The position numbers were made by a program, and so were the translations under genes. This document shows positions 3,076 to 23,782 of a stretch of DNA of 47,301 nucleotides, in pieces (the first letter of the stretch is position 1; every line of letters begins with the position of its first letter). The DNA is from Chloroflexota bacterium (GTDB lineage Bacteria; Chloroflexota; UBA11872; UBA12225): assembly GCA_016199265.1 (NCBI GenBank), contig JACQGX010000237.1:1-47301 (forward strand). The letters are read 5' to 3'. The notes beneath the pieces were generated by a model, which worked only from the letters and a program-made list of their open reading frames with translations, ran no database searches and was not told the origin of the DNA.

Positions 3076-6000
3076 CTACTCTGCAGAGGGCAGCGCCGCG
3101 AGGACGGCGAGACTGGCGAGCGTCTCTTCCACGGCCCACCTCGGGTCATCCAGGGCGGCGATGAGTTCGGAGAGGCCGCGGAGACCCTCCCGCTTGGCTG
3201 GGGTAAGGCGGCCAACCTCGGCGCGGACGAACACCGTCTCTTCGGCGGTCCAGGCAGGGAACTGGCTGCCCAGGCAGCGGAACGCCTCCTGCCAGCGCTC
3301 AGACACGTCGCGTCTGGCGAGTTGCGCCTGCCAGGTGGCGGTCCACGGCTGTCCAGGCTGGGCCGCTTCGAGCGCGCGAGCAGCGGCGCGGCGGAGACGG
3401 AGGCTGCAGGCCGCGTGCTGCGACTGCAGGGCGTCACGTTGCCGAGCGAGCGCTGCATCGGCCATCTGCCGTACCCGTGCCTCGGCCGCATCCTGGGCCT
3501 GCCGCCGGGCCGTCTCCAGTGCCTGTTGTGGTGGCGACTGGCCTTCCCAGGCGTCGAGCAGCGCCAAGAGGTCGGCCATCGCGGAAACGGGCCTGGACTG
3601 ACCGTCTGCGCTGACCCAGCGCATCTCCACGGCGACGAATGCCGGAGACCCGTCAAAAGCGCCGTACCTCGCCGGCGCGGCCGCCGCCCCGTTCGCGTTG
3701 TACGCACCCGATCCGGCACGGGCGTTACTTTCCGCGCCTAGGGCCGGCGGCGCGCTAGTACCCTGCGCTGCCTGGGCAGCGCGGGCAATCACCAGAGGCG
3801 ACCCGGCCGGCAGCTCCCTAAGCAACGCTTCAATCTGGAGCCACATGCGGGAGCCGGGACCGAACGGCTCGGCATCTTCTCGTGCCTCCAGGACGGCGCT
3901 GTCCAAGCCGACGGTGGTGGCGTTGGCCGGCGTGCGGATCTGCCAGGCCCCGTCGTCCAGCGCCTCAGCCGATACGCCGACATCCGCCTCCACCAGCCTG
4001 GCAAGAGCGGCTTTGAGCTGTTCCTTCTCCACCGGCGGCAGGGCACCTGGTACGTTGAGGTCCTCCAGCGCCGCCGCGTCGGACGGCGTGTAGACGCTTT
4101 GGGCCACCATGTTGCGCTCCGCCGCCGCCGCGGTTTGCTCGAGGTTCGCAATCTCGGCGTCCAACTGCTGGAGCGGGACGCGACGCATCAAGAGGCGCCG
4201 GGCGGCGCTCAGCACCGGCTGCATCGGCCCGACAAAGCTTTCGAACAAGCCACAGCGCACGTTGAGCACGTGGTAGACGTTGCGGTCGATGCTGCCCGCC
4301 AAGAAGAAGTTACGGATGGGCAGCACGGCATGGCGTTGCCCGATACGGTCAATCCGGCCGATGCGCTGCTCCACTCGTGCCGGGTTCCAGGGAAGGTCGT
4401 AGTTCACCAGTGCGCCGGCCCTTTGTAAGTTGAGGCCTTCGCTGGCGGCGTCCGTACAGAGAAGGACGTGGATCTCGCCGCCCTCCAGGGCCGCGGTGAT
4501 GGCCCCTTTCTTGACGGTCTGCCAGGCCGTCCCGTTCCATCGCTCGCCGCCGTCTCCGGTGTAGACGGCCAGGCGCTGGCCCCACGTCGATACCAGCCGG
4601 TCGCGTAGGGAACGCACCGTATCGCCGTACTCGCTGAACACCAGCACCGGCCGGCCGCCCTCTGTGACCCGGTGCAGCACGTCCCACAGCCGGTCAGCCT
4701 TGCTGTCACTGCCGGCGAGTAGCCTGATGCGATCCAGTAGCCGGCGCACCTCTCGCACCTCGGCATCGACCCCGGCCACCGTGGACGGCAGCGCGGCGTC
4801 GATTTCTGCCTCCTCCCCCGCATCAGCCAAATCATCTGCCGAGACCGCCACGCCAACATGTACGATCGCGGCCACCGCCGGGTCATAGGACTTTGTCAGC
4901 AGAGACTCGCGGTGACGCAAGAGTGCCTCTTCCCGGCGCAACATACTCTCCTTGAGCGCGCCCCAGGAACTTGTCGCGCGGCGCTGGTACACCACCATGA
5001 CAAAACCTTTGCCCCTTTTCTCCTTCTCCAACAAGACGTAGCGGGCGTCGATGTAACGGCTCACCGCTTCGTAACACTCGCGCTCCGGGCGGTACGCAAA
5101 CTCCACCACTTCTTCCTGGACGTCGCGCCGCGGGGGTGGCAACTCCACAATGCCGCGGGCGTGGTACTGGCGCAGCAGGCTGCGGGTGTGGCGGTGCATT
5201 CGCCGGGCCAGCGGCGTGGACTGGCGCAGCCACCTGGCCCAGCGCGGCCGATGCACTGGCAACCCGCCGCCAGTTGCCAGCGACGGCAGGCCATCCGGCG
5301 GCTTACCTGCGACGGACACCGCCAGGCGTTGCGCGGCCGCCGGCAGAGCATCGTCTGGCGGCCGCTGGCCCCATTCCAGCGCCCCAATGCAGCGGAAATA
5401 CCGCTCTACCGTATCGAACCCGGCTTGCCACTCGCCGCCGACACCCAGGGGCACCAGGAGGTCCCACGGCTCCCACGGCGAGGTCTGCATGGGCGTGGCC
5501 GACAGCAGGAGCAGGCTGCGCGCCTGCCCGCGGAGATGCAGGTCACGCGCCAGGCGCAGCAACAGATTGGCCTGGTTGAAGGCCCTGGCGTCTTTCTCGG
5601 TCCGGCGGGCATGGTGGGCCTCGTCAATCAGCACCAGGTCCCACGGTTCCGCCGCATCCAGGCGGGCCTTCATCGCTTCGGTACGCGCCAGTTCCCGGCT
5701 CAGCAGCAGCAGCGGTTGGGCCAGCGCATCGGTGACGGTCTGCGCCGCCACATCGACCACTTCACCCGGCCAGGTGAGGCGGCCGTCCTCCCAGCGCGGC
5801 GCCAGCACCCCGGCCTTTTCCCGCAATTCGGCTTGCCACTGGCGTAGCAGGCCGGCCGGCACCAGCAGCAGCGCACGTGCCACACCCCGGCCGGCCAGCA
5901 ACGCCTGCACGGCCAGCGCCGCCTCGATGGTCTTGCCCATACCCACTTCGTCACAGAGCAGGCGGCCATCCGGCCAGGCGGCCACCACGTCGCGGATAAC

Positions 6001-7068
6001 GCGCTGCTGGTGGGGCCACGGATCGACCGGCGCCAGGGCCACGGCGGCCAAGTCGCCATCCGGCAGGTACGGCGCCGCCAGGAGGAACCGCCAGGATGCC
6101 CGTGCCTTGCGGGTATCCAGAGTCGTGGCCAGAGGCGCTTCACGCACTCCCTTGGGAGTCTGCGGTGGCGCTGCTTCGGTGGGAGGAGGCGTGTTGATCG
6201 GTGGCGCCGGAGGCGGGAAGAAGGGCGGCTTGGCGGGCGCAAAGCGCAGCAACCCCTGTCGCGCGGCATCCGGCAACGTCACCGTGCGAACGTAGCGGTG
6301 CTGGTCCTGCCATAGTTGGTCGAACCGCGTGCGGTAGTAGTTCACCGCCTGGGCGTCGGCATCACTCAGCCAGGCCGGACTGACTTCGATCTCTTCATAG
6401 TTGCCGGCCAAGCCCGAAGCCGACTCGTTGGCACTGCCGCGGAAGACCAGCACGTCGCCCTGAGCGTCCGTCACCAGACCGAACTTGGCATGGACGATGC
6501 CAGCGCCCTGCCGGAGCACGCCCACCTTGACTTCCAGCAGACCGGCGCGGGCCAGCCAGGCCAGCGCCGCCAGCCGCGCCGCCTCCGCACCCGTTGCTGG
6601 CTCACCCAGGCGCGCCAGCAAGTGCCGGGCCAGCGGCGCCGGGTCGCCTTGCGAGAGCAGCGCCTGGGCGTCGGCCGGCTGCAACTGCTCATTGACGATC
6701 AGGCGCATGGCGGGCCGCGGCCCCCTGTAGTCCGGCGCAGCCAGGCGGCGCAGGAATGGCTCGAATCCGGCGGCCGCGGCGGCCAGCACGCTGCTGGAGA
6801 AGTAGGCGCACTCCCGGTCATAGGTGCGTGCGGCGGACAGTGCCGGGGCGTAGAGTTCCCGCACTACTTCCGGCGATGGGGCGCTGACGAACTTCCGCCA
6901 GGTGCGATCACGGAGGCGCGGCACCAACGCGCCGTCGTCATCCAGGGCGAGACTGAGCGCCGTGTGGGCGGTGATGGGTTGGCCGAAGAGGTCAAATGAG
7001 GACACCCCTCCCCCGGCCCCTCCCCGCAGCGCGAGGGAAGGTTGGGATGGGGGTTCCTCTCCGCTCAC
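3076..7068 (-). CDS. Phospholipase-D-like / SNF2 helicase fusion protein
   Basis: The 1330-residue product is the last gene of the operon. Residues about 80-230 form a phospholipase-D-like domain with a single HxK motif (H193, K195) and GSANES at 211-216, as in nuclease-type PLD proteins. Residues about 350-900 form a superfamily 2 SNF2/HepA helicase: DEVGMGKT at 373-380, DEAH at 482-485, an LLLLSATPMQ motif, and the C-terminal lobe with CTDAASEGLNLQ and an RIGRIDRIGQ arginine-finger region. A long helical tail follows. SNF2 helicases of this kind occur in BREX (BrxHII) and DISARM (DrmD), and PLD proteins in DISARM (DrmC). The GTG start overlaps the methyltransferase stop (GTGA). Residues 5-20 are encoded by a dispersed palindromic repeat, so translation might instead begin at the GTG at 7005. 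Confidence 0.93.
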   Translation of the reverse strand: MSGEEPPSQPSLALRGGAGGGVSSFDLFGQPITAHTALSLALDDDGALVPRLRDRTWRKFVSAPSPEVVRELYAPALSAARTYDRECAYFSSSVLAAAAAGFEPFLRRLAAPDYRGPRPAMRLIVNEQLQPADAQALLSQGDPAPLARHLLARLGEPATGAEAARLAALAWLARAGLLEVKVGVLRQGAGIVHAKFGLVTDAQGDVLVFRGSANESASGLAGNYEEIEVSPAWLSDADAQAVNYYRTRFDQLWQDQHRYVRTVTLPDAARQGLLRFAPAKPPFFPPPAPPINTPPPTEAAPPQTPKGVREAPLATTLDTRKARASWRFLLAAPYLPDGDLAAVALAPVDPWPHQQRVIRDVVAAWPDGRLLCDEVGMGKTIEAALAVQALLAGRGVARALLLVPAGLLRQWQAELREKAGVLAPRWEDGRLTWPGEVVDVAAQTVTDALAQPLLLLSRELARTEAMKARLDAAEPWDLVLIDEAHHARRTEKDARAFNQANLLLRLARDLHLRGQARSLLLLSATPMQTSPWEPWDLLVPLGVGGEWQAGFDTVERYFRCIGALEWGQRPPDDALPAAAQRLAVSVAGKPPDGLPSLATGGGLPVHRPRWARWLRQSTPLARRMHRHTRSLLRQYHARGIVELPPPRRDVQEEVVEFAYRPERECYEAVSRYIDARYVLLEKEKRGKGFVMVVYQRRATSSWGALKESMLRREEALLRHRESLLTKSYDPAVAAIVHVGVAVSADDLADAGEEAEIDAALPSTVAGVDAEVREVRRLLDRIRLLAGSDSKADRLWDVLHRVTEGGRPVLVFSEYGDTVRSLRDRLVSTWGQRLAVYTGDGGERWNGTAWQTVKKGAITAALEGGEIHVLLCTDAASEGLNLQRAGALVNYDLPWNPARVEQRIGRIDRIGQRHAVLPIRNFFLAGSIDRNVYHVLNVRCGLFESFVGPMQPVLSAARRLLMRRVPLQQLDAEIANLEQTAAAAERNMVAQSVYTPSDAAALEDLNVPGALPPVEKEQLKAALARLVEADVGVSAEALDDGAWQIRTPANATTVGLDSAVLEAREDAEPFGPGSRMWLQIEALLRELPAGSPLVIARAAQAAQGTSAPPALGAESNARAGSGAYNANGAAAAPARYGAFDGSPAFVAVEMRWVSADGQSRPVSAMADLLALLDAWEGQSPPQQALETARRQAQDAAEARVRQMADAALARQRDALQSQHAACSLRLRRAAARALEAAQPGQPWTATWQAQLARRDVSERWQEAFRCLGSQFPAWTAEETVFVRAEVGRLTPAKREGLRGLSELIAALDDPRWAVEETLASLAVLAALPSAE
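7005..7053. repeat. GC-rich palindromic dispersed repeat, copy A
   Basis: C-runs (CCCCTCCCCCGGCCCC) followed by an inverted G-rich half ending GGGATGGGGG form an imperfect palindrome with a GCAGCGCG centre. It shares its layout with the copies at 10027, 27509 and 46587. Here it lies inside the first codons of the helicase gene. Confidence 0.7.
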
Positions 7069-10000
7069 TGGCCGCGCCGCGCCCGCACCGGCGCTTCCAT
7101 TGTGGGGAGCATCAGTTGGCCGCCCCCTGGCGCCTGCCAGGGTATGGCCGCACCAAGACCCAACGGCTCCAGCAAGCTGCGCCAGATGCCGAACTCCGGG
7201 AAGTCCCGCGCACCCGGCCCGAACTGCGCCGCTCGTGGCGTGGCGGCGACCAATGCCTGAAGTAACGCTCCCGCCTGGGTGCGCTGGCCCGCTGGCAGAC
7301 GGTTCCAGAGCGCCCGCGCTGCGCCGGTGCCGGCCGGTGAGGCTACCGGCGCCGGTTCATCAGTAGCGGCGGGTGCTGGTGGCGTGGCCGGATCATCCGC
7401 CGGTGGGTCGGCTTCCAGCGCCGCCAGGGCCAGCGCGTGGCACACATCCAGCGCCGTGGCGAAGCGTTCGTCCCGCGGGTGGACATGGCCTCCTTCCGGC
7501 TCGGCTGTGCCCAGGTGGGGCTGCGCCCGCCGCCGCGCTGCCGCCGCCAGCAGTGCCAGGTTTCCCTTGGCGCGGACGGCGACGCCGGCCTGGACCAGAT
7601 CGCCGGTATCGAGGCCGAGGGCCAGGGCCAGCAGGCGCACCTGGTCGAACGCAATGGAGGCGCTGCCGAACTGCGCCCACCACAACAGCGCGGCGCGGGA
7701 GATGGCATCCATGTCCGCCAGGGCACTGCCCGTGCCAGATGGCAACTGCGCCGCCAGTTGGGCGGCCCGCCAGGCAGCGACGGCTCCGGCCGCCTCCTGC
7801 ATCACGCGGTCGAAGCCGACCGGGCGGCCGGTCACGTCCCGTACTTCGTCATAGGCGCTGGCGACGCCGATAGCCGGGCCGAAGGCGCCCACCAGTTGAT
7901 CGACGCCGCTGAGACTCTGGGCGCCCAGACGCTCCGCGGCGGCCTGCGCCGCCCGTACCACCTGCGGGCGTAGTTCCTCCCAGTAGCCGGTGCCGGCGCT
8001 GGCCCGGCGGGGGCGGCAGCACAGCAGCACGGTACTCTGGGCCGCGTTCTGGTCGCGGATATGCAGGCTGGTGGCGCTCTCCGTGGTGACCGGCCAAGAG
8101 GCCTTGACGATGAACCCGGCGTCGCGCAGGCTGCCCGCCAGGGCGTTCCACGCCTCCGTTTTGGTGTGCGTGAACATCACGGTGAGCACGCCATCCGGCC
8201 GCAGCACCCGCCGGGCTTCCTTGAAGGCGGCCAGCATCTGGCGCTCGTAATAGGCGTGCGCGTCCCGCCTGGCGTCCCCGGCCATGCCGTCCAGGGCGCG
8301 ATGGCGCGCCGTGTTGGCGACCGCCTCTTCGTTCTTGGGGCACAGGTCGGTCTCAAACCAATCGGGGTGCTGGTCGCCGATGGTGCGCTGCAGCCAGACG
8401 TAGAAGTAGTCCGCCAGTTCGCTGTACTGCACGTTGTCGTAGTACGGCGGATCGACCACCACGGCAGTGACGCTGCCATCATCCAGGTGCCAGAGGTTGG
8501 TGGCGGAGGCGCGTTGCACCGCCGCCGGTTCCGCTCCCGCCGCCTTCGGCAGTTCGGCCAACTGGCGGGCAGCCTTCAGTACGTTGCCGATGGCCCATTG
8601 CAGTCCGCCGCCGGAAACGCTCAGGGGCATTTCGGCAAACGTGGCCTTAAATGCAAAGTCGTGCCTGTCGAAGACCGACCTCATCGCCTTCTTGGTTGGT
8701 TCCCAACTCGACATGAGGCTGTCGTAGTTCGCCACCTTGTCCACCACCAGCGCCAGCAGATGCACAATCGCATCGGCCATGTCATCGTCGGCGCGGCGGA
8801 TGTCCGGCTCCAGGCGCTTGAGTTCTTCTGCCAGCACGCCCAATGCCAGGAGTTGCCGCGGGGCGAAGAGGTCAGTCCATTTCTTGCCACCGTAGAGGCG
8901 AGGCCGCTGGTCGGAGGTGATCTCCGGCAATTCCTGGGTGGGCAGGATGCCATCTCGCTCCCACTGCGGCTTGAGCCGGGCCAGTTCTTGCTCGGCCAGG
9001 GCCAGGGCATCCTGGTCGGCCTGGGTGGGTGGCCGGAAGTCCAGCTTAGGCGCCTTGGTCGCCACGGCGTACAGCACGTAGCCCAACTTACCGGCCTGGG
9101 CCTGACCCTGCACATAGGCCGCGGGGAAGGTGGAGCGGCTGCCGAAGAGGCTGCGCCCGCCGCCCCGGATGTACGTCGACTCTGGCGCCTTCGCCACCTC
9201 GCCGGCCAGGTGCCCGATGCGCTTTATCTCCGTGCGCCAGGTGCCCGTTTGGGAATCCACATGGGTGGGTACGGCGACCACGTTGGGCCGGAGCAGCATC
9301 CAGTCCGGTACCAGCGGCGTGGGATGGCCGGTCTCCCGGCACGGCACCGTGCGAGCGAAGATGTACGTGTTGGCGGTATCTGCATCTCCTGAATACAGAG
9401 GTTGCAGTCTGGCGTCAACGTGGCGTTTCCACTCCTTGGCCCAGAACGCCGCGCGCTTCGCAAGTCGAGGGCCAAAGCGAAGTGGGTGATCGACCGTGGC
9501 AAGCATGACCGCCGCTGCTACTGGATTGAAGTCACTGGCTGCGGTAGGCAGGCCGATGCGGGCCGCCTCAAGTGGAATTGAGCCTCCCCCGGCCATCGGA
9601 TCAAGGACGGTTGGCAGGCTACCCCAAACGCGAGACATCGCCCGGTGGGCCGCGTCCACCGCATCTTCTGGGAGGGCAGCGGAGAAGGCACGTGGGCCGA
9701 ACGGACTTGGGATTCTCTCGCCCGTAAGGCGGGCCTGGTCAAGTGTATCGGCTGCGGCAAGAATTGCATTGGCTCCGCCGCTCAGACCGAGCAGGCGCTC
9801 AACCATCCCGCGGTCAGCGTCGGCCGGCAGGAGCGAGCACAGCACCGCCGCGCGTGAGATAGCCAGCGGGCGGCGCGCCCACCAGACGTGCAATTGCACG
9901 TTGGGCGGGAACGGCGCCATGAATTGATGCTCCCGCTTGCACTCGATGCCGATGGCCCGCGCCGGGAGCCATTCTTCTAGGAGCACGGGCGGCGGCTCAG

Positions 10001-10079
10001 TGACCGGAGCGGCGGCCGGTGCCCGTTTCCCCGCCGTGCGGGGGAAGGTCAGGATGGGGGTAGCCTCTCTGGTGGTCAC
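7065..10079 (-). CDS. DUF1156 (COG1743) adenine-type DNA methyltransferase
   Basis: The 1004-residue protein begins with the DUF1156 signature, including LHVWWARRPLAISRA near residues 64-78. It has SAM-binding motif I (LDPMAGGGSIPLEA, Asp160) and a catalytic DPPYYDN box at 543-549, the D/N-PP-Y type used by N6-adenine or N4-cytosine methyltransferases. COG1743/DUF1156 enzymes are the PglXI methylases of type III BREX as I recall, and also occur in other defence islands. I chose the GTG at 10079 because it overlaps the preceding stop as GTGA. The first 20 residues are partly encoded by palindromic repeat copy B. The long insert between motifs and a helical C-terminus may recognise the target sequence. 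Modification of host DNA to mark self is the expected role. Confidence 0.92.
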   Translation of the reverse strand: MTTREATPILTFPRTAGKRAPAAAPVTEPPPVLLEEWLPARAIGIECKREHQFMAPFPPNVQLHVWWARRPLAISRAAVLCSLLPADADRGMVERLLGLSGGANAILAAADTLDQARLTGERIPSPFGPRAFSAALPEDAVDAAHRAMSRVWGSLPTVLDPMAGGGSIPLEAARIGLPTAASDFNPVAAAVMLATVDHPLRFGPRLAKRAAFWAKEWKRHVDARLQPLYSGDADTANTYIFARTVPCRETGHPTPLVPDWMLLRPNVVAVPTHVDSQTGTWRTEIKRIGHLAGEVAKAPESTYIRGGGRSLFGSRSTFPAAYVQGQAQAGKLGYVLYAVATKAPKLDFRPPTQADQDALALAEQELARLKPQWERDGILPTQELPEITSDQRPRLYGGKKWTDLFAPRQLLALGVLAEELKRLEPDIRRADDDMADAIVHLLALVVDKVANYDSLMSSWEPTKKAMRSVFDRHDFAFKATFAEMPLSVSGGGLQWAIGNVLKAARQLAELPKAAGAEPAAVQRASATNLWHLDDGSVTAVVVDPPYYDNVQYSELADYFYVWLQRTIGDQHPDWFETDLCPKNEEAVANTARHRALDGMAGDARRDAHAYYERQMLAAFKEARRVLRPDGVLTVMFTHTKTEAWNALAGSLRDAGFIVKASWPVTTESATSLHIRDQNAAQSTVLLCCRPRRASAGTGYWEELRPQVVRAAQAAAERLGAQSLSGVDQLVGAFGPAIGVASAYDEVRDVTGRPVGFDRVMQEAAGAVAAWRAAQLAAQLPSGTGSALADMDAISRAALLWWAQFGSASIAFDQVRLLALALGLDTGDLVQAGVAVRAKGNLALLAAAARRRAQPHLGTAEPEGGHVHPRDERFATALDVCHALALAALEADPPADDPATPPAPAATDEPAPVASPAGTGAARALWNRLPAGQRTQAGALLQALVAATPRAAQFGPGARDFPEFGIWRSLLEPLGLGAAIPWQAPGGGQLMLPTMEAPVRARRGQ
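10027..10060. repeat. GC-rich palindromic dispersed repeat, copy B
   Basis: A shortened copy: TTCCCCGCCGTGCGGGGGAA forms a near-perfect stem, followed by GGTCAGGATGGGGG, the same G-rich tail as copy A. It lies within codons 7-18 of the DUF1156 gene and keeps the frame open. Confidence 0.6.
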
Positions 10080-10579
10080 GCCACCGCCTCCACCAGGATA
10101 CGCAGCGCCCGCAGCGCCCGGCCGGCCTGCTCTCCGGTCAGCAACGCCAGCCACCAGGCGGCGTCCGGCCCGTGCATCTCCTGTGACCGCCGCGCGGCCC
10201 GCCCTAGGCGTGCCGGGTCACGTAGACCGCGCGATACCAGCGCGTAGCAGGCCACCCGCGCGCCCCAATCGGCCCGCAGGGGTTGGAATGGCCCCACCGG
10301 CGGCGGCCAGGCGCCGCCGTCCTTGCCGTTGCGTGCCGGCCGATCAACGCTGCCCGCATCGCTCTCGCCGTTTCCGATGGCCGGTGCGGGCAAGGTGCCA
10401 TTGCGGACAGCCCGGCGCAGCAGACCATCGCCCGCCGTCAAAGCCAGCGGCGACAGTGCCGCGACCCGTTGCAGGCGGTCCCGGCCTCCCCGCTTGGGCG
10501 CTCGCCGGTACACGATGGCCGCCTCCCCGTCCGCGCGGTGCACGAGTCGCAGCGCGTAGGGCGCCTCACGCAGTTTCAT
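10076..10579 (-). CDS. Defence-operon protein of unknown function (167 aa)
   Basis: The gene overlaps both neighbours by four bases (ATGA with the DUF499 gene, GTGA with the methyltransferase), so it belongs to the operon. I do not recognise the family with confidence. The N-terminal third (YALRLVHRADGEAAIVYRR) looks beta-rich. A variable glycine/asparagine linker follows near residues 60-90. The C-terminal part (FQPLRADWGARVACYALVSR, then RLGRAARRSQEMHGPDAAWW and a helical RALRALRILVEAV end) has the conserved look of a structured domain. Small DUF3780-type proteins occur at a similar place in related operons, but this sequence does not obviously match that family. It might be an adaptor between the ATPase and the methyltransferase. 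Confidence 0.75.
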   Translation of the reverse strand: MKLREAPYALRLVHRADGEAAIVYRRAPKRGGRDRLQRVAALSPLALTAGDGLLRRAVRNGTLPAPAIGNGESDAGSVDRPARNGKDGGAWPPPVGPFQPLRADWGARVACYALVSRGLRDPARLGRAARRSQEMHGPDAAWWLALLTGEQAGRALRALRILVEAVA

Positions 10580-13500
10580 GGTGTTTCCATTGTGATGGCG
10601 GCCGCGCCGTCGCCGGCCCGCTCAGGACCAAAGTGGGCTTCGATGTGTAGAAGGTGTTCGTCTACCTGCGCGTCGCGCAGCCGCCGCGCGGCCTGCGTTT
10701 GTTCCTCATCGCCGGTGAAGGCGATCGACAGTTGGGCCTGGTAGGTGGAGCCAGGCAACCGCCGTGCCAGGTTGGCCGCGATCTGCGCCAGGTCCCCCGC
10801 GGCGGCGTGGGTGCGCGGCACCTGGTCAATGCTCAATTGCACCCGGCTCGGTGTTAGGCCAGCATCAGCGGCCGGGTCACCACCCACTGTTGCCAACACC
10901 TCGATGCTCATCAGTGGTTGTTTGGCGTTCAGCACACGGCCCACCACGGCCAGCTTGGGCATGTGCGCCGGATCAGCGATGACCACCGTGAGGGCGTGGA
11001 GCGGCCGGCGCACGGCCAGTTCACGCGCCCGCTGCCAGTCATTGGCGGTCTCCTCCCATGACTGAGGCCACGGAACTGGAGGGCCATCAACGGGCTGGTC
11101 GTCGGTGGGGCCGGTGGGACCAGACCCGCCTCCCGCCGGTTGAGGGGAAGGCGCCATCCATTCACGGGCGCGGGCGCTCGCCGGCCGGGCGATCAGCGTC
11201 AAATCATCCAACTGGAAACTGGCCGGCCCTTGCTCCGGCGGCAGTTGCGTCACCGTGCGCTGGCCGGGCGCGCCGGAACAGCGACGATCACCCAGGTAGG
11301 CATCACCCGTGGTCAAATGCAGGGCTACCAACCCCTGACGCGCCGCCGCCGCGATCCCCCGGCGCACCGGGCCATCATCCAGAAAGAACCGCAGCCCGGA
11401 CATGCTTAACACCCGCTCGTGAATATCCTTCGCGGTGAACAGGTCGGCGTCGCCATCGTGCGGTGTCGTGCCGGGCAGCACCCGGTCCACGAGGAGCTGC
11501 GGGCCGAGCATGTCGTCCTCGGTGAACCGCAGTTCGTTGTCCTTGAGCATGTCCAGCAGGCGTTGCTGCCCGTTCAGCGCCCCATTGCCGCCCGTTGGGC
11601 TGGCGGCCGCCAGGTAGCCCTCCGTAACGGTCAATGGCTCATGTTCGGGCAGCACCAGCGCCGTCCAGGCCAGGCGTGATTGCACCGGCACCTGGCGCGG
11701 CAACACGTCCATGATCGGCTTCAACTGCTGTCGCGCCAATGTCGCGGAAATCTGGCCCGACCCCGGCATCGTGGCCTCGGCCTGGAGTTCCCGGTCAAGC
11801 TCCCGCGCCGCCAGCAAGCGCCGCGCATAGCCGATGGCCTGGCGCCACTGGTCGGTGCGTGGCGCGAGGGCCATGATGGTGTTGCGGTACTGGCGTGGCA
11901 GTGGTTCACCAGGCGCTGCGCCCGCTGCCGGCCGGTCCCGTGGCGAGGTGTCTTTGTAGGCCACCACATCCTGCGCCAGCGCCAGACGGTCACACAACGC
12001 CAGGGTCGGCACCGGCCGGTCGGCAACGTCGGCAGCATTTCGGGGCCAGTTACGGACGTGGAGCGGCCGGCCGGCGTAGTACGCCTGGACATGGCTGCGT
12101 ACCTCCGCCGCCGCGTCGGCCTCCGGGATGCGCGCCATCTTCTCTTCCAGGCGCTTGTTCACGCTCGGTTCAACGGTGAAACGATACACCCCCGTCGCCG
12201 GCTCAGTAATGTGCCAGGCCACGCCCGCCAGCCGCGCGATGCCCTCCGCGATTTCGGTCCCGGCATCGCTCGGCCGCAGGGCCGCCAGGGTCACATCGGC
12301 GCGATCCATGCTGGGCGCCGGCGTGACCTGCAAGCTCTCCAGGAACAGCGCCCGCGCCGCCCGCCGGTGCGCGTCGCCGGTCGCCAGCGCTTCATCCAGC
12401 CTGGCCGCGTGTCCGTGCACATCCGCTTGGAGCGCCGGACGAAAGGCGCCGCGCTGGAGCCGGTCGAGCAGTTCGGATTGAAGCAACTGGTCGGTCCAGT
12501 CAATTCCCCCGGCGCTGATGAGCGGCAGATCAGCCTGACGCTCCCACACCTGGCGCAGCAGGCGCGCGAAGAGGCGCAGCGTGCCGCGGCTGCGCTGGAA
12601 CTCCGGCAACGCCTGCAATCGGTCCTGCACCGTCCGCAGCAGGCGCGGATGGAAGGGGTACGCCGCCTCAATCTGCGCCTGGTAGACGTCCGTACACACC
12701 TCCGGCGGCAACACGTCCGGGTCAGTGGCCCGGATGCGCTCGTAGGCCGCGCGGTACTGTCCCGCCGTAGCCTTCGCTACGGTCGGATTGACCGACTCCA
12801 GCAGCCGCCGCGTGATGACGGCGATGGCCTCGCCGCCCACTGGGTCAAAGTCCGTTGCCAGGCGACCGGCCTCGCTGCCAAGCGCCGCTTGCGCCGCCGC
12901 CCGCTCTGCCTGTGTGGGGCCAGCCGCCTTGTCCAACTGCTCGCCCAGGCCGGCGTAACCAAGTTGCGGGCCGGGATCGGCGATTACCACCACCAGGCCA
13001 GGACGGGTCGCGGCCAGGGCCATCAATTGGCGAATGAACAACAGCGTCGTGGTGGCCTGCGGCGTCCCCTCTCCCCAGGCTGCCAGATACAGTACAAGCT
13101 CATCGAAGAGGAGGAGAACGGGCCCATCGGGCAGGATTGAACGGGTTACATCCAGATGTGGGAGGGTGGCGGGATCATCCGGCGTCTGCGCCAACAACGC
13201 CTTAACGCCGGCATCACGCCCCAACTGCCACGCCAGTTCACCCCACAGCGTTCGGATAGCCCGACCACCGTGATACGACACCACATCACGCCCAGCCGTC
13301 TGCCCATCAATGCCGGCGACATCTACACGATGCGGCCGTTCGGCGGCCGGTACAAGGTCATTCCCCACGTCAGCCACGCCGCTATGGTTCGCCAGGTGCC
13401 AGAGGGCAATCAGGGCGTGGGTCTTGCCACCACCGAAGCCGGTGTGCAGCCGGATAGCCGTGCCTGGCCGGTGGGTGTGGTTGAGGTGAGCGAACACGCG

Positions 13501-13716
13501 CCGTGCCACTGCTTTGAGACTGGCGCCGGGATGCGTGTTACGGAAAAAGGTCGCGGCCTCGCTGTACACCGTGGGCGCGCGGCCCTCCATAACTTCGTCA
13601 AAGCGGGCAGCGAACAGCGCATCTTGGAGATCGGCGCGCAGCACGTCCTGGCGGGGCTGGCAGCCGGCGAGCACAGAGAGGCCGGTGGCAGCGGGTGCAG
13701 CGGCGGGAGTGACCAT
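10576..13716 (-). CDS. DUF499 P-loop ATPase (BrxC/PglY-like)
   Basis: The first operon gene encodes a 1046-residue AAA-type ATPase of the DUF499 class. The Walker A is unusual and diagnostic: GFGGGKTH at residues 93-100. Walker B is VLLLFDE at 200-206. A receiver-like ADPGPQLGY segment and a long helical C-terminus follow. DUF499 proteins are large ATPases of defence operons; BrxC/PglY of BREX belongs to this set. I place the start at the ATG at 13716, giving MVTPAAAPAATGL, because residues further upstream would come from the IS66 element whose end lies at 13734. An AGAGAAG ribosome site remains between the element and the start. The native promoter has therefore been separated from the gene, and transcription may come from the transposase gene, which reads in the same direction. 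Confidence 0.9.
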   Translation of the reverse strand: MVTPAAAPAATGLSVLAGCQPRQDVLRADLQDALFAARFDEVMEGRAPTVYSEAATFFRNTHPGASLKAVARRVFAHLNHTHRPGTAIRLHTGFGGGKTHALIALWHLANHSGVADVGNDLVPAAERPHRVDVAGIDGQTAGRDVVSYHGGRAIRTLWGELAWQLGRDAGVKALLAQTPDDPATLPHLDVTRSILPDGPVLLLFDELVLYLAAWGEGTPQATTTLLFIRQLMALAATRPGLVVVIADPGPQLGYAGLGEQLDKAAGPTQAERAAAQAALGSEAGRLATDFDPVGGEAIAVITRRLLESVNPTVAKATAGQYRAAYERIRATDPDVLPPEVCTDVYQAQIEAAYPFHPRLLRTVQDRLQALPEFQRSRGTLRLFARLLRQVWERQADLPLISAGGIDWTDQLLQSELLDRLQRGAFRPALQADVHGHAARLDEALATGDAHRRAARALFLESLQVTPAPSMDRADVTLAALRPSDAGTEIAEGIARLAGVAWHITEPATGVYRFTVEPSVNKRLEEKMARIPEADAAAEVRSHVQAYYAGRPLHVRNWPRNAADVADRPVPTLALCDRLALAQDVVAYKDTSPRDRPAAGAAPGEPLPRQYRNTIMALAPRTDQWRQAIGYARRLLAARELDRELQAEATMPGSGQISATLARQQLKPIMDVLPRQVPVQSRLAWTALVLPEHEPLTVTEGYLAAASPTGGNGALNGQQRLLDMLKDNELRFTEDDMLGPQLLVDRVLPGTTPHDGDADLFTAKDIHERVLSMSGLRFFLDDGPVRRGIAAAARQGLVALHLTTGDAYLGDRRCSGAPGQRTVTQLPPEQGPASFQLDDLTLIARPASARAREWMAPSPQPAGGGSGPTGPTDDQPVDGPPVPWPQSWEETANDWQRARELAVRRPLHALTVVIADPAHMPKLAVVGRVLNAKQPLMSIEVLATVGGDPAADAGLTPSRVQLSIDQVPRTHAAAGDLAQIAANLARRLPGSTYQAQLSIAFTGDEEQTQAARRLRDAQVDEHLLHIEAHFGPERAGDGAAAITMETP

Positions 13717-13733
13717 TTGGCGCTTCTCTACTT

Positions 13734-15265
13734 GTGACTGTCTAGCCTGAGAGATTGGGGACGAGGGGCGTACCGGTGAAGACCTGTTCGAGGGTGGCGA
13801 GTACCGGCAGGCCCTGCTTGCGGATGGTGGCAATGTACCCTCGGAGGCGGGCACATCGGGTAGCGCCCGCGGGGCTGCGGAAGCCCCCCGAGATCTTCTG
13901 TTGGACCTGCAGCAGGCGCAGGTCGCGCTCGGCCTGGTTGTGGTCGAACGGCACGCGGCAGTCGTGCGCGAACGCCCATACCGCCTGCCGGTGGGTGGTC
14001 AGCCGGTCGAGCAGGTGCTGGGCCTTGCGCTGTTTCTTCCGCCCCCGCGGCGGCGGGGCGTCGGGTGGGGGGGCCTGGGGTGGGTTGGCGGCCCGCCCCT
14101 GCTCGAGGAGGTGGTCATAGTGGGCCGCCAGGGTGGCCAGGGTGACCTCGTCCAGGTGGTCGTGCCTGGCGGCGCGGGCGGTGTCCACCAGGTCCTGGGC
14201 GGTGACCAGCCGCGTCGCCAATTCGTCGGCCCCCGCCTGGTGGTGCGGTTCGTGCCGGAAGAGCAGCTCCCGCAGCAGGTGGGCGTGGCCCAGGGCGTGG
14301 GCGCAGCCGGTGTAGGTCAGGTACGACGCGTAGGCGTCGTGCTCCGCCGTGCCGGTGAAGGCGGGCAGGATGCCAATCGTCTTGGTCGCGTCGGTGCACC
14401 CCAAGCGGGGCACCGCGTCGTGGGTCAGCGTCGCCGTATCGGCCACGTGCCGCCACGCGCGGTGGCCGTTCACCCGCACACTCGTCTCGTCGCAGCCGGC
14501 CACGGCCGCCGCGGCCAGCGCCGCCTTGATCGCGGTCTCCACCGGCGCCAGCGCGGCGCAGCCGGCCACCTCGGCCGCCGCCACCGTCCGCGCGCCGGGC
14601 CCCGCCCCGAACAGGTCATCCAGCAGTTCGGTGGTGCGGGCATACGGCAGCAATTGGTCGTCGTGGAGGGACACCGCCTCCGCCTTGAGCCGGTCGCCAT
14701 ACGGCACCGGCTGCGTCACGCCCGCCGGGAACACGCCGGCCGTCTCCGCGCCACACGTGGGGCAGGTGACGTGCGCCACCCGGTGCTCGGTCACCTCCAG
14801 CGCCAACGGCGGCAGGTCGACCACCTGGCGCCGCTCGGCGTCCAGGCGCTCCCCCGCGGCCGCGCCGGGCGCCGCCACGTCCAGGGCCTGCCCGCAGGCG
14901 CCGCACTGCGCCCGGCCCGTCTCGCCGGGGGCGGGACGCCGGCTGCGTGGCGCCGGCTTGGGGCGCCCCAGGTCACTCGACGGCGGCGTGCTGCGGTGGT
15001 GGCGGTCCAGCGCCAGGCGGTCTTCCGGCGCCGGCACCCGCGCGCTCAGCACCACGTTGGCCGCCTCCAGCGCCGCGATCCGGTCCAGCAGCGCCTCGAC
15101 CAGCGCGAGCATCGCCGCCGGTCCCGCACGGTAGCTCGCCAGCAGTGCCTCGCGCGTCGGCCGGTTCACCGCCACTACGTGTACCATCTCCGCCGCGCCC
15201 GCCGCAAGCGCCGCGGCCGCGCTCGACACCTCAGCCTCCGCGCCCCAGGGAGGCTAGACAGTTAC
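13734..15265 (-). mobile_element. IS66-family insertion sequence (single-transposase type)
   Basis: A 15-base terminal repeat GTRACTGTCTAGCCT occurs at 13734-13748 and, inverted, at 15251-15265, differing at one position. The ends begin GTRA as IS66 elements usually do. The 1532-base element holds one transposase gene and no tnpA/tnpB, as in the ISBst12 subgroup. The flanking octamers (CTCTACTT and AGCGTAGT) differ, so the usual 8-bp target duplication is missing, which points to a later deletion or recombination. Confidence 0.85.
13742..15229 (-). CDS. IS66-family transposase
   Basis: The 495-residue protein has an N-terminal helical segment (AALEAANVVLSARV), a zinc-finger-like region (C109/C112 and C156/C159), and a DDE catalytic domain with CDETS (Asp247) and NQAERDLR (Glu434). 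The VQQKISGGFRSPAGA stretch and the C-terminal IATIRKQGL are IS66 hallmarks. The stop codon (TAG, 13742-13744) lies within the left terminal repeat. The gene looks intact and reads toward the DUF499 gene 26 bases beyond its stop. Confidence 0.92.
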   Translation of the reverse strand: MSSAAAALAAGAAEMVHVVAVNRPTREALLASYRAGPAAMLALVEALLDRIAALEAANVVLSARVPAPEDRLALDRHHRSTPPSSDLGRPKPAPRSRRPAPGETGRAQCGACGQALDVAAPGAAAGERLDAERRQVVDLPPLALEVTEHRVAHVTCPTCGAETAGVFPAGVTQPVPYGDRLKAEAVSLHDDQLLPYARTTELLDDLFGAGPGARTVAAAEVAGCAALAPVETAIKAALAAAAVAGCDETSVRVNGHRAWRHVADTATLTHDAVPRLGCTDATKTIGILPAFTGTAEHDAYASYLTYTGCAHALGHAHLLRELLFRHEPHHQAGADELATRLVTAQDLVDTARAARHDHLDEVTLATLAAHYDHLLEQGRAANPPQAPPPDAPPPRGRKKQRKAQHLLDRLTTHRQAVWAFAHDCRVPFDHNQAERDLRLLQVQQKISGGFRSPAGATRCARLRGYIATIRKQGLPVLATLEQVFTGTPLVPNLSG

Positions 15266-15492
15266 AGCGTAGTAACGAATGGGACGGCTTCTACGCCAAT
15301 CCCAAGCCACCCGCGCACCGCAGCGTCCTCAAAGCGGCGGTCGACTACGCGCACCCGCACCTGCTAACCGGCCAGTGAGGCATCATCACCTACGATGCCA
15401 TCATCCCCGTGCGCGACGCGCTGGCGAAGGTCTACGCCGGCGAGGTGGCGGTGAAGGACGGCCTGCAGGGCAGCGCGCTCGGCCAGGCGTAA
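15266..15492 (+). pseudogene. Solute-binding protein C-terminal remnant
   Basis: Directly beyond the IS66 end the frame reads NEWDGFYANPKPPAHRSVLK and AAVDYAHPHLLTGQ, then TGA (15376-15378), then GIITYDAIIPVRDALAKVYA to a TAA at 15490. This resembles the C-terminal lobe of extracellular sugar-binding proteins ('..pyahplp..i...l..vl.Ge'). The N-terminal part is absent and an internal stop is present. The rest of the gene was probably lost in the rearrangement that removed the IS66 target duplication. Confidence 0.65.
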
Positions 15493-15540: not shown

Positions 15541-15798
15541 ATGGTTTCCGTCACTGTCGAAGAAGCCAGGGTAGAGTTGCCCTCTCTCATCCAGCGAGCC
15601 GCCGCCGGCGAAGACGTGCTGATCTCAGAGCACGGAAAGCCGGTCGCCAAGCTGGTTTCGGTGCCGATCGAGAATTCACAGCCCTTGAAGCCGCGTGTCC
15701 CCGGCTCCATGCGAGGCAAGATATGGATCGCGGACGACTTCGACGCACCGCTCCCGCCTGATCTTCAAGCCGCCTTTGAAGGTGAGGAGATCGAGTAG
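15541..15798 (+). CDS. Phd/YefM-family antitoxin
   Basis: The 85-residue protein has the Phd/YefM layout: MVSVTVEEARVELPSLIQRA, then the GEDVLISEHGKPVAKLV strand-turn that forms the DNA-binding dimer, then an acidic tail (DDFDAPLPPDLQAAFEGEEI) that would wrap the toxin. A GAGGAG ribosome site precedes the ATG. Its TAG stop is followed immediately by the GTG start of the PIN gene, so the two are co-translated. It likely neutralises that toxin and represses the shared promoter. Confidence 0.92.
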   Translation: MVSVTVEEARVELPSLIQRAAAGEDVLISEHGKPVAKLVSVPIENSQPLKPRVPGSMRGKIWIADDFDAPLPPDLQAAFEGEEIE

Positions 15799-16188
15799 GT
15801 GGGCCTGCTGCTCGATACCAATGCCTTTCTCTGGTGGATCGCCGGCGGTCACCTGCTCTCCCACGCGGCGTACGACGCCATCGCCGACTCCACCAACCGC
15901 GTGTTCTTCAGCGCCGTCTGTTCGTGGGAGATCGCGATCAAGCTTGCCACCGGTAAACTGCGGGTAACACCTGACGCTACTACGTGGTTGCCCGACGAAC
16001 TCCAGAAGAACCATTTCATCGAGTTGCCGATCACAGTCGCGCACACGATGGCGGTCGAACACCTCTCCATGCACCACCGCGACCCGTTCGATCGCCTACT
16101 CATCGCGCAGGCGATGGAGGAGAATCTCACCATCGTCACGCGCGATGCGAGCTTCTCGCAATACGCGGTTAGTGTTATCCGAGCCTGA
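15799..16188 (+). CDS. PIN-domain ribonuclease toxin (VapC-like)
   Basis: This 129-residue PIN protein starts with GTG directly after the antitoxin stop. It begins MGLLLDTNAFLWW and carries the acidic metal-binding set: Asp6, Glu44 (SWEIAIKLA), Asp95/Asp98 (HRDPFDRLLIAQA) and Asp116 (TRDASF). The SWEIAIK and DPFDRLL patterns match the VapC subgroup usually paired with Phd-type antitoxins. The predicted role is cleavage of specific RNAs when antitoxin is lost. All key residues are present and the gene looks intact. Confidence 0.93.
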   Translation: MGLLLDTNAFLWWIAGGHLLSHAAYDAIADSTNRVFFSAVCSWEIAIKLATGKLRVTPDATTWLPDELQKNHFIELPITVAHTMAVEHLSMHHRDPFDRLLIAQAMEENLTIVTRDASFSQYAVSVIRA

Positions 16189-19209: not shown

Positions 19210-20313
19210 ATGCTAACTATTCGCAATACCGCCGCCGCCCGCCTTCCCGGCCTCCCGAGCGTCGGCGTGTCGCTCCGGCCGCCCCGTGGCCGGACGACAA
19301 TCCTCGTCGGCGTCCTGCTCGCGCTCCTCGCCGCCGCTGTCGTCGTTTCGGCGGCCCATGGCCCCGCCCGCATCACCTACCTCGAGAGCGCCGCCATCGT
19401 CCTGGACGACGTTGGGATTCATTTGGGCGTGCCGTACCCCCGGACAGCCGAGTTGGTGATCGAGCAGGTGCGCCTCCCGCGCATCCTGACCGGTGCCCTG
19501 GTCGGCATGTCCCTCGCCCTCGCGGGCGTCGCGCTTCAGGGACTGTTCCGCAACCCCATGGCTGACCCGGGCATCCTCGGCGTCTCGGCCGGCGGCGCGC
19601 TCGCGGCCGTGCTCGCCATCGTCACGGGCATGCAGGCGCGTAGCGTCCTGTTCCTGCCCGCCATGTCGGTGATCGGCTCCCTCACCACCGTCTCGCTCGT
19701 CTACGGACTGGCCAACGCTGGCGGGCGCTTCACCCTCGCCTCGCTGCTCCTCTCGGGCATGGCCGTGAGCGCGTTTCTCGGCGCGTGCATCTCGTTCATC
19801 ATGCTCAGCCAGCGTGAGCTGGCTTCGCTGCAGGCGGTTCTGTTCTGGTTGGCCGGCGGCCTGGATGCACGCCTCTGGCTGCACGTGCGCCTCATCGCGC
19901 CACCGCTATTGCTCGGCGCCGTGGCGGTGTACGCCTTCGCCCGCAGCCTGAACGTCATGCTCCTGGGCGAGGAGACCGCGCACTCGCTCGGCGTCCGCGT
20001 CCGGCGGAGCCGCCTCATTCTGCTCGCCCTGGCCTCGGTCTTGACCGGCGTCGCGGTCTCGGTCAGCGGTACCATCGGCTTCGTCGGGCTGGTCGTGCCT
20101 CACGCGATGCGCCTGCTGGTCGGCCCCGACCACCGCATCCTGCTGCCGGTCAGTGCCCTCGCTGGCGCGGTGTTCCTCGTCACCGCCGACACTGTCGCGC
20201 GTCTGGTCCTTCAACCGGCTGAGCTGCGCGTCGGCATCGTGACGGCGTTCGTCGGTGCACCGTTCTTCCTCTTCCTGCTGCTGCGCAACCGCCGCCGGCT
20301 CAACCTCCTGTAG
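19210..20313 (+). CDS. FecCD-family iron/heme/cobalamin ABC transporter permease
   Basis: The 367-residue membrane protein has the FecCD/BtuC pattern: a first membrane helix near residues 30-50, then RLPRILTGALVGMSLALAGV and the diagnostic LQGLFRNPMADPGILGVSAG segment around 97-125, several further helices, and a GLVVPHAMRLLVGPDH motif near 290-305 that contacts the ATPase. Length and layout fit a ten-helix permease working as a homodimer. It lies 47 bases before a binding-protein gene of the same transporter type. The ATP-binding subunit is 3.5 kb downstream. The substrate is probably an iron chelate or heme, judging by the HutX-like and ferredoxin neighbours. Confidence 0.93.
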   Translation: MLTIRNTAAARLPGLPSVGVSLRPPRGRTTILVGVLLALLAAAVVVSAAHGPARITYLESAAIVLDDVGIHLGVPYPRTAELVIEQVRLPRILTGALVGMSLALAGVALQGLFRNPMADPGILGVSAGGALAAVLAIVTGMQARSVLFLPAMSVIGSLTTVSLVYGLANAGGRFTLASLLLSGMAVSAFLGACISFIMLSQRELASLQAVLFWLAGGLDARLWLHVRLIAPPLLLGAVAVYAFARSLNVMLLGEETAHSLGVRVRRSRLILLALASVLTGVAVSVSGTIGFVGLVVPHAMRLLVGPDHRILLPVSALAGAVFLVTADTVARLVLQPAELRVGIVTAFVGAPFFLFLLLRNRRRLNLL

Positions 20314-20360
20314 ATGGGCCCACCACTGTGTTCACGAAAGGAAGGAGCATCACACATACC

Positions 20361-21437
20361 ATGGACACCTTCAGCAGACGCCGCGCACTTCGTTCACTCA
20401 CCGTTCTCGGCAGCGCCGCCGCCGTCGCCTGTGGCGCCCCGGCCTCGTCGCCCCAGGCTCGACCGGCTGCTACCACTGCGCCTGCTACGAGTCAGTGGAC
20501 CCAGATCTGGGCTACAGTTCCGGACATCGTCGATCCGAACAACGCCGGCTGGCCGCGCCGCGTGCGCGACTTCCGCGGCAAGGAAGTCGCTATCAAGGCC
20601 ACGCCCCAGGCCTTGATCGCCGACACGCTCGGCCTCGCTGAGGTGACGCACGCCCTCGTCCCCGTCTCGCGCATCCGTGCCGCGTGGGAGGGCGACATCC
20701 TTCGGCCCACGTCCAACATCCGGGAAATTGCCGCCCGCGTCCCGTTACGGTACGCCTCTTTCGGCGGCGCCGGCGGCACGGAGGAAATCATTGCCTTCCA
20801 GCCTGACCTTATCGTCTTCAGCCAGTTCATCCCCGCCGAAAAGGTGCAGCTCATCGAAGAGGCCGGGGTAACCGTCGTCGTCAGCGGCATCAGGTCCAGT
20901 GTCGAGGACTACAAACCCATGATCCGCTTCCTCGCCTACGTGTATGGCGAGGAAGCCAACGGCGAGCAGCTTATCGCCGAGATCGAACGCCGCATCAAGG
21001 TTGTGACCGCCGTCACCGAAAAGAAGCGGGAGGCGGAGAAACCGCGCGTGCTCTACCTGGACGGCGGCGCGTGGGCTAACGGCGCCGACACCGGTCCGGA
21101 CGCCATCATCCGCTACGCCGGCGCCATCAACCCGGCCGCCAAGGCCGGCATCAAGGGCTCACAGCAGGTCGGGGTCGAATCGATCGTCGCCCTCAGCCCC
21201 GACTACATCATCGTGAACCCCGAAGGGACCGACGGGGCAAAGCGCCAGGAGCTGCTGACCCACCTCGCCCTGGGCGAGGTGCCCGCAATCAAGAACGGCC
21301 GGCTGGTGGACATCCACGGGCGATACATCCGCGCGATCTCCCATTGGGCCGTTCGCGGCCTCGAGGAACTGGCCAAGATCCTCTGGCCCGACGACTTCAA
21401 GGGCGTGGAGTTCAAGGACTTCGTCTACCGTCAATAG
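20361..21437 (+). CDS. TroA/FecB-type iron-complex binding lipoprotein
   Basis: The 358-residue protein starts MDTFSRRRALRSLTVLGSAA and has a lipobox ending at Cys24 (AVACGAP), with an RRR motif suggesting Tat export. The mature part shows the two-lobed helical-backbone fold of class III binding proteins: HALVPVSRIRAAWEG, EEIIAFQPDLIVFSQFIPAE in lobe one, and VESIVALSPDYIIVNPEGTD with the ALGEVPAIKNGRLVDIHGRY end in lobe two. I chose the ATG at 20361; GGAAGGAG lies 13 bases ahead. It would hand its ligand to the upstream FecCD permease. The ligand (siderophore, heme or cobalamin) is not resolved by sequence. Confidence 0.9.
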   Translation: MDTFSRRRALRSLTVLGSAAAVACGAPASSPQARPAATTAPATSQWTQIWATVPDIVDPNNAGWPRRVRDFRGKEVAIKATPQALIADTLGLAEVTHALVPVSRIRAAWEGDILRPTSNIREIAARVPLRYASFGGAGGTEEIIAFQPDLIVFSQFIPAEKVQLIEEAGVTVVVSGIRSSVEDYKPMIRFLAYVYGEEANGEQLIAEIERRIKVVTAVTEKKREAEKPRVLYLDGGAWANGADTGPDAIIRYAGAINPAAKAGIKGSQQVGVESIVALSPDYIIVNPEGTDGAKRQELLTHLALGEVPAIKNGRLVDIHGRYIRAISHWAVRGLEELAKILWPDDFKGVEFKDFVYRQ

Positions 21438-21457
21438 GCGACCGTGCCTGCCGCGGC

Positions 21458-22381
21458 TCAGGCGCTGAGCAGCACCCCCGTGATCGGCTCTGCCGGGATC
21501 GGCGCTCCCGATGGGCTCGCCACCAGGAGTTCCACCCCTGGCCGCGACGCGTAGCGCTCCTGCACCCGGCGGAAGAACTCCACCCGCTCCGGCTGTAGCT
21601 CGCACGGCTTGAACTCGTCGTCCAGGTGCGGGAACGGGAAAATGGCCTTCAGGAGAGTCCGGCCGCCGGCCGCACAATACTTGACCGAGAGGCTCAGTGG
21701 CAGTCCGTGCCCGCTCACCCCCCCATGCTCTTCGCAGAACCGCAATGTCTCCACCCGGCGGAAGTTGACGTGTACGTGCATTCCGGCATTTGCCAGCGTC
21801 ATGTAGCCCTTTTCGACCGACAGGCGATCGAAGACCGTCGGGGGGAACGCTTCGATCACCGAGCTGCCCACGGCCAGGACGAAATTGATGCGCCCGCTTT
21901 CCCGTAGTTCCTCCGTGATGTCGCTCAGCGTCTGGACGAACACCTCACGGTCTTCGGCCTCACCGCCGCTGCGCTGGATAGTGACGCTTCGCACACCCGG
22001 CTCCTTCCCCCACCGATCGCGAATCGCTAGCCACGCATCCGGCGCGGCGCCGCTGCCGGTGCCGGTAGACCCGTTTCCCCGCGCGCCAGCGGCCCCTAGG
22101 TGCGCCTGCAAGAGCGCCTCACCCGCCGTGTCGGCAAACACCACCGAGTAGCGCGGCCCCCGCCCCTGGTCTTCCGTCAGCGCGATCAAGTTCACATCCC
22201 TCAAGTCGACTAACACGCGCCAGTCTTTGCCGCTCAGCGTCGCTCGATCGCTGTCTACACGCGGCCGTTCGCCGGTTCCCAGCTCAAAGACGCCCGCCAC
22301 TCCACCGTGGGCGATAGAAAACGCCGTTCCGTCAAGCTCTGCCAACTCACGCAGGAGCGCCCCCGCGCGCGCTGTCTCCAT
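21458..22381 (-). CDS. HutX/ChuX/HemS-like heme-utilisation protein (putative)
   Basis: The 307-residue cytoplasmic protein lies in reverse orientation between the iron-uptake genes. Its N-terminal half (GKDWRVLVDLRDVNLIALTE, then YSVVFADTAGEALLQAHLG) resembles the repeating unit of HutX/HemS proteins, which carry or degrade heme. The C-terminal half contains NAGMHVHVNFRRVETLRFCE and a KAIFPFPHLDDEFK segment with several histidines that could be metal or heme ligands. A low-complexity glycine/threonine linker around residue 100 separates the halves. It starts at the ATG at 22381, divergent from the ferredoxin-fusion gene, so the 115-base gap holds both promoters. Family assignment is by pattern only. 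Confidence 0.55.
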   Translation of the reverse strand: METARAGALLRELAELDGTAFSIAHGGVAGVFELGTGERPRVDSDRATLSGKDWRVLVDLRDVNLIALTEDQGRGPRYSVVFADTAGEALLQAHLGAAGARGNGSTGTGSGAAPDAWLAIRDRWGKEPGVRSVTIQRSGGEAEDREVFVQTLSDITEELRESGRINFVLAVGSSVIEAFPPTVFDRLSVEKGYMTLANAGMHVHVNFRRVETLRFCEEHGGVSGHGLPLSLSVKYCAAGGRTLLKAIFPFPHLDDEFKPCELQPERVEFFRRVQERYASRPGVELLVASPSGAPIPAEPITGVLLSA

Positions 22382-22409
22382 CTTACCGCCTCCTTGTTAC
22401 GCACCGGCT

Positions 22410-22438
22410 TTGACTCGTCTGCCAGCCCAGTATATACT
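22410..22438 (+). promoter_or_regulatory. Strong sigma-70-type promoter of the ferredoxin-fusion gene
   Basis: TTGACT (22410-22415) and TATACT (22433-22438) are separated by 17 bases. Just downstream, TTGCAAA and TTTTCGCAA form an imperfect palindrome (about 22452-22474) placed where a Fur- or DtxR-like repressor could block transcription. The opposite strand must carry the promoter of the HutX-like gene. Confidence 0.7.
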
Positions 22439-22496
22439 CCCGCTGTGGTTATTGCAAATACAAGGTTTTCGCAACATCCGACAGGGAGGTATTTCC

Positions 22497-23756: not shown

Positions 23757-23782
23757 CACCTGCTCCTCCCGAAGGTCCCGGC

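Follow-up and report, generated by a model that had tools for sequence, protein, structure and literature searches.

A probable DUF499-centred BREX-related defence operon with a DUF7680 protein in a Chloroflexota bacterium

Rakesh & Krishnan reported DUF499-centred BREX-related (BR) systems in NAR in January 2026 (PMC12839542), and a defence role has been published for this kind of system (PMC12839542; PMC8565338). Type-1 systems consist of three genes, with a helicase that carries a C-terminal PD-(D/E)XK domain and no HKD (PMC12839542), and are the same as the Hma systems of PADLOC (PMC12839542; PMC8565338). In Type-2 systems an HKD nuclease replaces TUDOR at the N-terminus of the helicase and a standalone DUF3780 is present in 98% of taxa, and Type-3 loci include PglZ and iSTAND genes (PMC12839542). 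The ATPase, methyltransferase and helicase of the DUF499 systems are counterparts of BrxC, PglXI and BrxHII of type III BREX, where BrxC is a DUF6079 and not a DUF499 protein (PMC12839542).

The window analysed here is a stretch of 47,301 nucleotides, comprising a whole contig (C185) of a draft genome of 5.6 Mb that is 77%-complete. Between 13716 and 3076 the minus strand encodes four complete co-directional genes with no broken frame (Table 1), in the order DUF499 ATPase, 167-aa protein assigned below to DUF7680, DUF1156 methyltransferase and HKD-SNF2 helicase. The core of a BR system, a DUF499 ATPase, a DUF1156 N6-methyltransferase and an SNF2 helicase in one locus, is thereby present. The initial annotation had described a four-gene operon with four-base overlaps, and both the ORFs and the three junctions (ATGA, GTGA and GTGA) were confirmed, each start lying within the preceding stop. 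The catalytic motifs of the genes all read as intact. No pglZ, brxA, brxF or DUF1998 genes were found within the operon or between the operon and the IS66 element. Past its 3' end lie two hairpins, the longer of which is unique in the genome, and this pair is a possible 3' boundary of the operon.

Table 1. Positions of the operon genes and adjoining features in the window
Feature	Coordinates	Strand or position	Basis
DUF499 AAA+ ATPase (HmaC-like), 1046 aa, first gene	10576..13716	-	Pfam, PADLOC, motifs
DUF7680 protein, 167 aa, second gene, fourth conserved component	10076..10579	-	Pfam DUF7680, alignment, AlphaFold2
DUF1156 DNA methyltransferase, 1004 aa, third gene	7065..10079	-	Pfam, PADLOC, motifs
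HKD (PLD-type nuclease)-SNF2 helicase fusion, 1330 aa, predicted effector, fourth gene	3076..7068	-	Pfam, PADLOC, NCBIfam, motifs
IS66-like element	13733..15266	-	DDE_Tnp_IS66 108 bits; transposase ORF 15229-13742
Two perfect GC-rich hairpins, no T-run	12-bp stem 2937-2967; 15-bp stem 2882-2916	~110 nt past helicase stop	Sequence reading

The ATPase, which has a GTG start inside a longer ORF (13854), matched Pfam DUF499 with 60 bits and the PADLOC HmaC model with 223 bits, as against 81 bits for the PADLOC DUF499 model, and it contains a Walker A motif GFGGGKTH at residue 93 and a Walker B motif LLLFDEL. The methyltransferase matched Pfam DUF1156 (51 bits) and PADLOC HmaB (262 bits), is 52–54% identical to the proteins of two other Chloroflexota loci, and is predicted from its motif I (DPMAGGGS) and motif IV (DPPYYDN at residue 543) to be of the adenine-N6 type. 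For the helicase, matches were obtained to Pfam SNF2 and Helicase_C (40 and 56 bits), PADLOC PLD_Helicase (200 bits), NCBIfam phospholipD_antiphage (309 bits against a cut-off of 1100) and Pfam PLDc_2 (21 bits, below its cut-off of 27). An HKD motif (HAKFGLVTD...GSANES) is located in its N-terminal part at residue 193, the SNF2 motifs GMGKT, DEAH, SATP and QRIGRIDRIGQ are all present, and a PD-ExK pattern was not found in this protein.

Among the described systems, Type-2 BR (DUF499/DUF3780/DUF1156/HKD-SNF2; the 'anti-phage' set NF042962-NF042964 of NCBIfam) shares with the window operon its gene order, the absence of PglZ, the HKD at the helicase N-terminus and a small second gene with the same predicted topology; in the Type-2 loci fetched, DUF3780 occupies the second operon position, as DUF7680 does here. 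The two differ in that the hallmark DUF3780 is replaced by DUF7680, that the window proteins fall far short of the NCBIfam equivalog cut-offs (124/1200, 201/1000 and 309/1100 bits) and that helicases of the DUF7680 type are 1050–1390 aa long, compared with about 910 aa in Type-2. Type-1, or Hma (HmaA helicase, HmaB methyltransferase, HmaC ATPase), resembles the window operon in giving the best ATPase and methyltransferase scores and in the motifs xFGGGKTH and DPPYxDN, whereas the Type-1 loci compared contain three core genes, arranged mostly as helicase, methyltransferase, ATPase, and lack both a small gene and an HKD. Type-3 has the same DUF499, DUF1156 and SNF2 core but includes PglZ and iSTAND and has no nuclease fusion, while the window operon has an HKD fusion, no PglZ and no further gene.

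The likeness to BREX type III is confined to a homologous core of ATPase, methyltransferase and helicase; PglZ, BrxA and BrxF are absent from the locus and likewise from its relatives, and the ATPase is a DUF499 and not a DUF6079/BrxC protein, so membership of that type was rejected. DISARM likewise has an SNF2 helicase (the window protein is DrmD-like, 159 bits) and a PLD-type nuclease domain, but none of DrmA, DrmB (DUF1998) and DrmC is present and the methyltransferase is of another family, and this assignment was rejected as well. The label of a BREX III or DISARM-type set given in the initial annotation is thus not upheld, although its equation of the three large proteins with BrxC, PglXI and BrxHII agrees with the conclusion of PMC12839542. 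Its alternative suggestion of a distinct minimal system was correct insofar as the operon is self-contained without PglZ, but not insofar as it implied an undescribed system, as BR systems including Hma have been published.

The gene neighbourhood proved to be widely conserved. The same order of four genes was seen in about 34 loci retrieved from Haloarchaea and several bacterial phyla. A methyltransferase query of genome contigs, blind to the small gene, returned 19 loci, one of them (L030) just a fragment at the edge of a contig. Every methyltransferase-found locus whose contig reaches far enough has the order DUF499, DUF7680, methyltransferase, HKD-SNF2; the one locus without the small gene (L013) is cut by a contig edge at that place, its small gene being seen as L004. 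The hosts of the genome loci (L012-L029) were Chloroflexota, Alpha-, Beta- and Deltaproteobacteria, Planctomycetota, Verrucomicrobiota, Lentisphaerota, Acidobacteriota and Aminicenantes. The same query found the four genes on plasmids of Sinorhizobium, Rhodococcus, Nostoc, Picosynechococcus, Haloglomus and Haloarcula, and the set is also present on a viral contig (L106). On a Roseomonas mucosa plasmid (L019, L041) DUF499 is cut to 433 aa beside an IS6 transposase, with the remaining three genes at full length. Because the same order is kept across many phyla, a chance association of the four genes is excluded.

Several relatives have additional genes in their operons. These are inserted at the junctions on either side of the methyltransferase gene (L018, L022, L028, L029, L044, L046, L048, L049, L051 and L063) and encode AlbA/Schlafen, OLD-TOPRIM, cytosine methylase, UvrD, metallo-beta-lactamase fold, DUF262, DUF3800 and VapBC proteins. 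In one genome (G174), two genes lie between DUF7680 and the methyltransferase of the DUF7680 operon (L049, 11038-15566), one for a BrxC/BrxD-family ATPase (206 bits) and one for a DEAD helicase, which is a BREX-module insertion; the same genome has a DUF3780-type operon (L062, G174:C6) with broken reading frames for DUF499, the methyltransferase and the helicase. The Klebsiella plasmid NZ_CP114377.1 (L067) bears, between two IS26 copies, a divergent DUF499-DUF1156-SNF2 operon that includes SIR2 and ATP-binding genes and neither DUF7680 nor DUF3780, and DUF1156 matches were obtained on 28 Klebsiella plasmids.

For further comparison the loci were grouped as window-type (A), canonical DUF7680 (B), DUF3780 (C) and Type-1 (D). 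The comparison Type-2 loci were from plasmids (L063-L066), genomes (L060-L062) and viral contigs (L076-L096), and the comparison Type-1 loci were L045 and L068-L073.

The second gene product had been left as a protein of unknown nature, and on the strength of profile scores it probably belongs to the DUF7680 family. Its own score against Pfam DUF7680 (PF24728) was 22.5 bits, just under the curated cut-off of 24, and a 54% identical relative (L014) reached 31.7 bits over its full length; scores in relatives were 31–152 bits, with canonical members and plasmid loci at 98–152 bits. DUF7680 was found in 10 of 201 genomes of the phylum, in all ten directly downstream of DUF499. Neither Pfam nor a 21-member DUF3780 profile gave a DUF3780 match for the 167-aa protein, and assignment to that family by sequence was rejected. 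The DUF7680 profile matched 34/35 A and B loci and 0/28 others, and the DUF3780 profile matched 19/19 C (Type-2) loci and 0/35 A and B loci, with no Pfam or HMM overlap between the families at any locus compared; the 100% co-occurrence is partly by construction, because the small families themselves served as queries for the DUF3780 loci and for some of the canonical DUF7680 loci; they played no part in retrieving the window-type loci and six plasmid loci.

The family alignment of the 167-aa protein comprised 17 members. An AlphaFold2 model of the DUF7680 protein (pLDDT 81, pTM 0.76) had the topology b-b-b-a-b-a-a-a-a, and a DUF3780 model, built from an alignment of genome and viral loci, had the same order of elements (three strands, a helix, a strand and four helices). 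Fold searches with the DUF7680 model against PDB and BFVD, and with the DUF3780 model against BFVD, gave no significant match. Profile-profile comparison of DUF7680 with DUF3780 gave a score of 27.8 (pairwise P 0.0011) over 87 columns in the C-terminal half only. This exceeded 200/200 column shuffles (maximum 25.8 over 22 columns, mean 12.1, s.d. 2.4), and the match was weak by hhalign probability (20%). Profiles and models together suggest that DUF7680 and DUF3780 are probably remote homologues.

Quick maximum-likelihood trees of the ATPase, methyltransferase and helicase, all unrooted, were used to place the window-type loci. Groups A, B, C and D were each monophyletic in all three trees. 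A and B joined in the methyltransferase (support 84–99) and helicase (93–99) trees; they were not united in the ATPase tree, where their union was not rejected (AU p 0.29). The three window proteins fell outside both the Type-1 and the DUF3780 clades. With Type-2 the DUF7680 loci share the HKD and a DEVGxGKT-like helicase motif; with Type-1 they share the Walker A xFGGGKTH and, in most cases, DPPYxDN. The PADLOC scores agree with this pattern, HmaC and HmaB being best for the ATPase and methyltransferase and PLD_Helicase for the helicase. The best reading is that the DUF7680-type lineage would be a mosaic between Types 1 and 2.

The chief alternative is that this is an ordinary published Type-2 BR system in which DUF7680 is merely a diverged DUF3780 with no branch of its own. 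The shared gene order, HKD-helicase and predicted small-protein topology would fit this explanation, as would the helicase tree, in which the DUF7680 loci group with the DUF3780 loci against Type-1, although in these unrooted trees either Type-1 or Type-2 may be the sister of the DUF7680 loci. It is nevertheless rather unlikely, given the lack of overlap between the two families and that the DUF3780 loci form their own long-branched clade, separate from the DUF7680 loci, in three of three unrooted trees. DUF3780 systems also have MGGGKTH and DPPYxDA where the DUF7680 loci agree with Type-1, and no mention of DUF7680 was found in the literature searched, including the main text of PMC12839542. 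It is, in our judgement, about as likely as not that the DUF7680 systems of bacteria and haloarchaea constitute an unrecognised fourth BR subtype, with a Type-2-like effector and small adaptor and a Type-1-like ATPase and methyltransferase, and that DUF7680 and DUF3780 form one superfamily of modification readers or adaptors serving HKD-SNF2 restriction effectors.

Overall, the locus is likely to be a complete DUF499-centred BR anti-virus operon of a DUF7680-type lineage, predicted to work like a restriction-modification system. It is best read as belonging to a known kind, the BR systems, with the DUF7680-type lineage as what is new. The proposed mechanism follows from the protein families (PMC12839542) and the operon anatomy. 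The methyltransferase would mark host DNA with N6-methyladenine, and the DUF499 AAA+ protein would assemble on DNA and scan it. The DUF7680 protein, a probable remote relative of DUF3780, may serve as the adaptor or reader through which the modification state of the DNA is coupled to the effector. Where invading DNA is unmodified, the SNF2 motor would then translocate and the HKD domain would cleave.

Defence might instead proceed by abortive infection or a block of replication, with methylation secondary and without cleavage of unmodified DNA. BREX itself blocks replication (PMC13326643), and nuclease or toxin-antitoxin genes occur inside the operon in relatives. This mode of action is unlikely in view of the HKD-like motif, present in 25 of 25 full-length helicases of the DUF7680 type (groups A and B), and of the methyltransferase, which is always kept. 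A housekeeping or plasmid-maintenance system of DNA modification with no anti-virus role would be consistent with the frequent presence of the system on plasmids; the patchy distribution in the phylum (10/201 genomes), the HKD-SNF2 effector and the homology to tested defence families make it very improbable.

The suggestion that this is a BREX III or DISARM set whose pglZ and other genes were lost in an IS66 event is scarcely credible: the component homologies are BREX-type (PMC12839542) and an IS66-like element ends 17 nt upstream of the operon, but IS-free relatives have the same four genes starting with DUF499, PglZ is entirely missing from 10 of the 12 carrier genomes searched, some at least 99% complete, and the host PglZ adjoins BrxL elsewhere in the genome. 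The loss of genes to this rearrangement, envisaged in the initial annotation, is refuted by these relatives and PglZ searches, and the possibility that homologous loci always contain pglZ came out negative, no relative fetched having the gene within its operon. The host's only PglZ (730 bits) has BrxL (906 bits) as its immediate neighbour on the minus strand at a contig end (L010, G000:C241, 8076-12586), the two forming a separate BREX locus. As DUF499 is first in all relatives, the insertion removed no core gene, and judged by its gene content the DUF499-DUF7680 operon is complete.

The right end of the IS66-like element abuts the operon at the DUF499 start, and the element may have replaced the native operon promoter. 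Its 16-nt inverted terminal repeats (TGTrACTGTCTAGCCT; 13733-13748 and 15251-15266) are 94% identical, and no clear 8-bp target duplication was recognised at its ends. Just beyond it lies a Phd/YefM antitoxin and PIN toxin pair (15541-16188, plus strand), and an iron/haem uptake cluster with FecCD permease, periplasmic binding proteins and an ABC ATPase is found on the same far side (19210-24655).

These results give DUF7680, whose function was unknown, a fixed place in a defence operon and link it to DUF3780. They also show that one branch of the HKD-SNF2 DUF499 systems is recovered by present detection tools only in pieces, namely Hma genes and PLD_Helicase. A PglZ-free restriction machine of four genes would allow the roles of ATPase, reader, methyltransferase and nuclease to be separated, and the mosaic, if true, bears on the exchange of effector modules among BREX-related subtypes.
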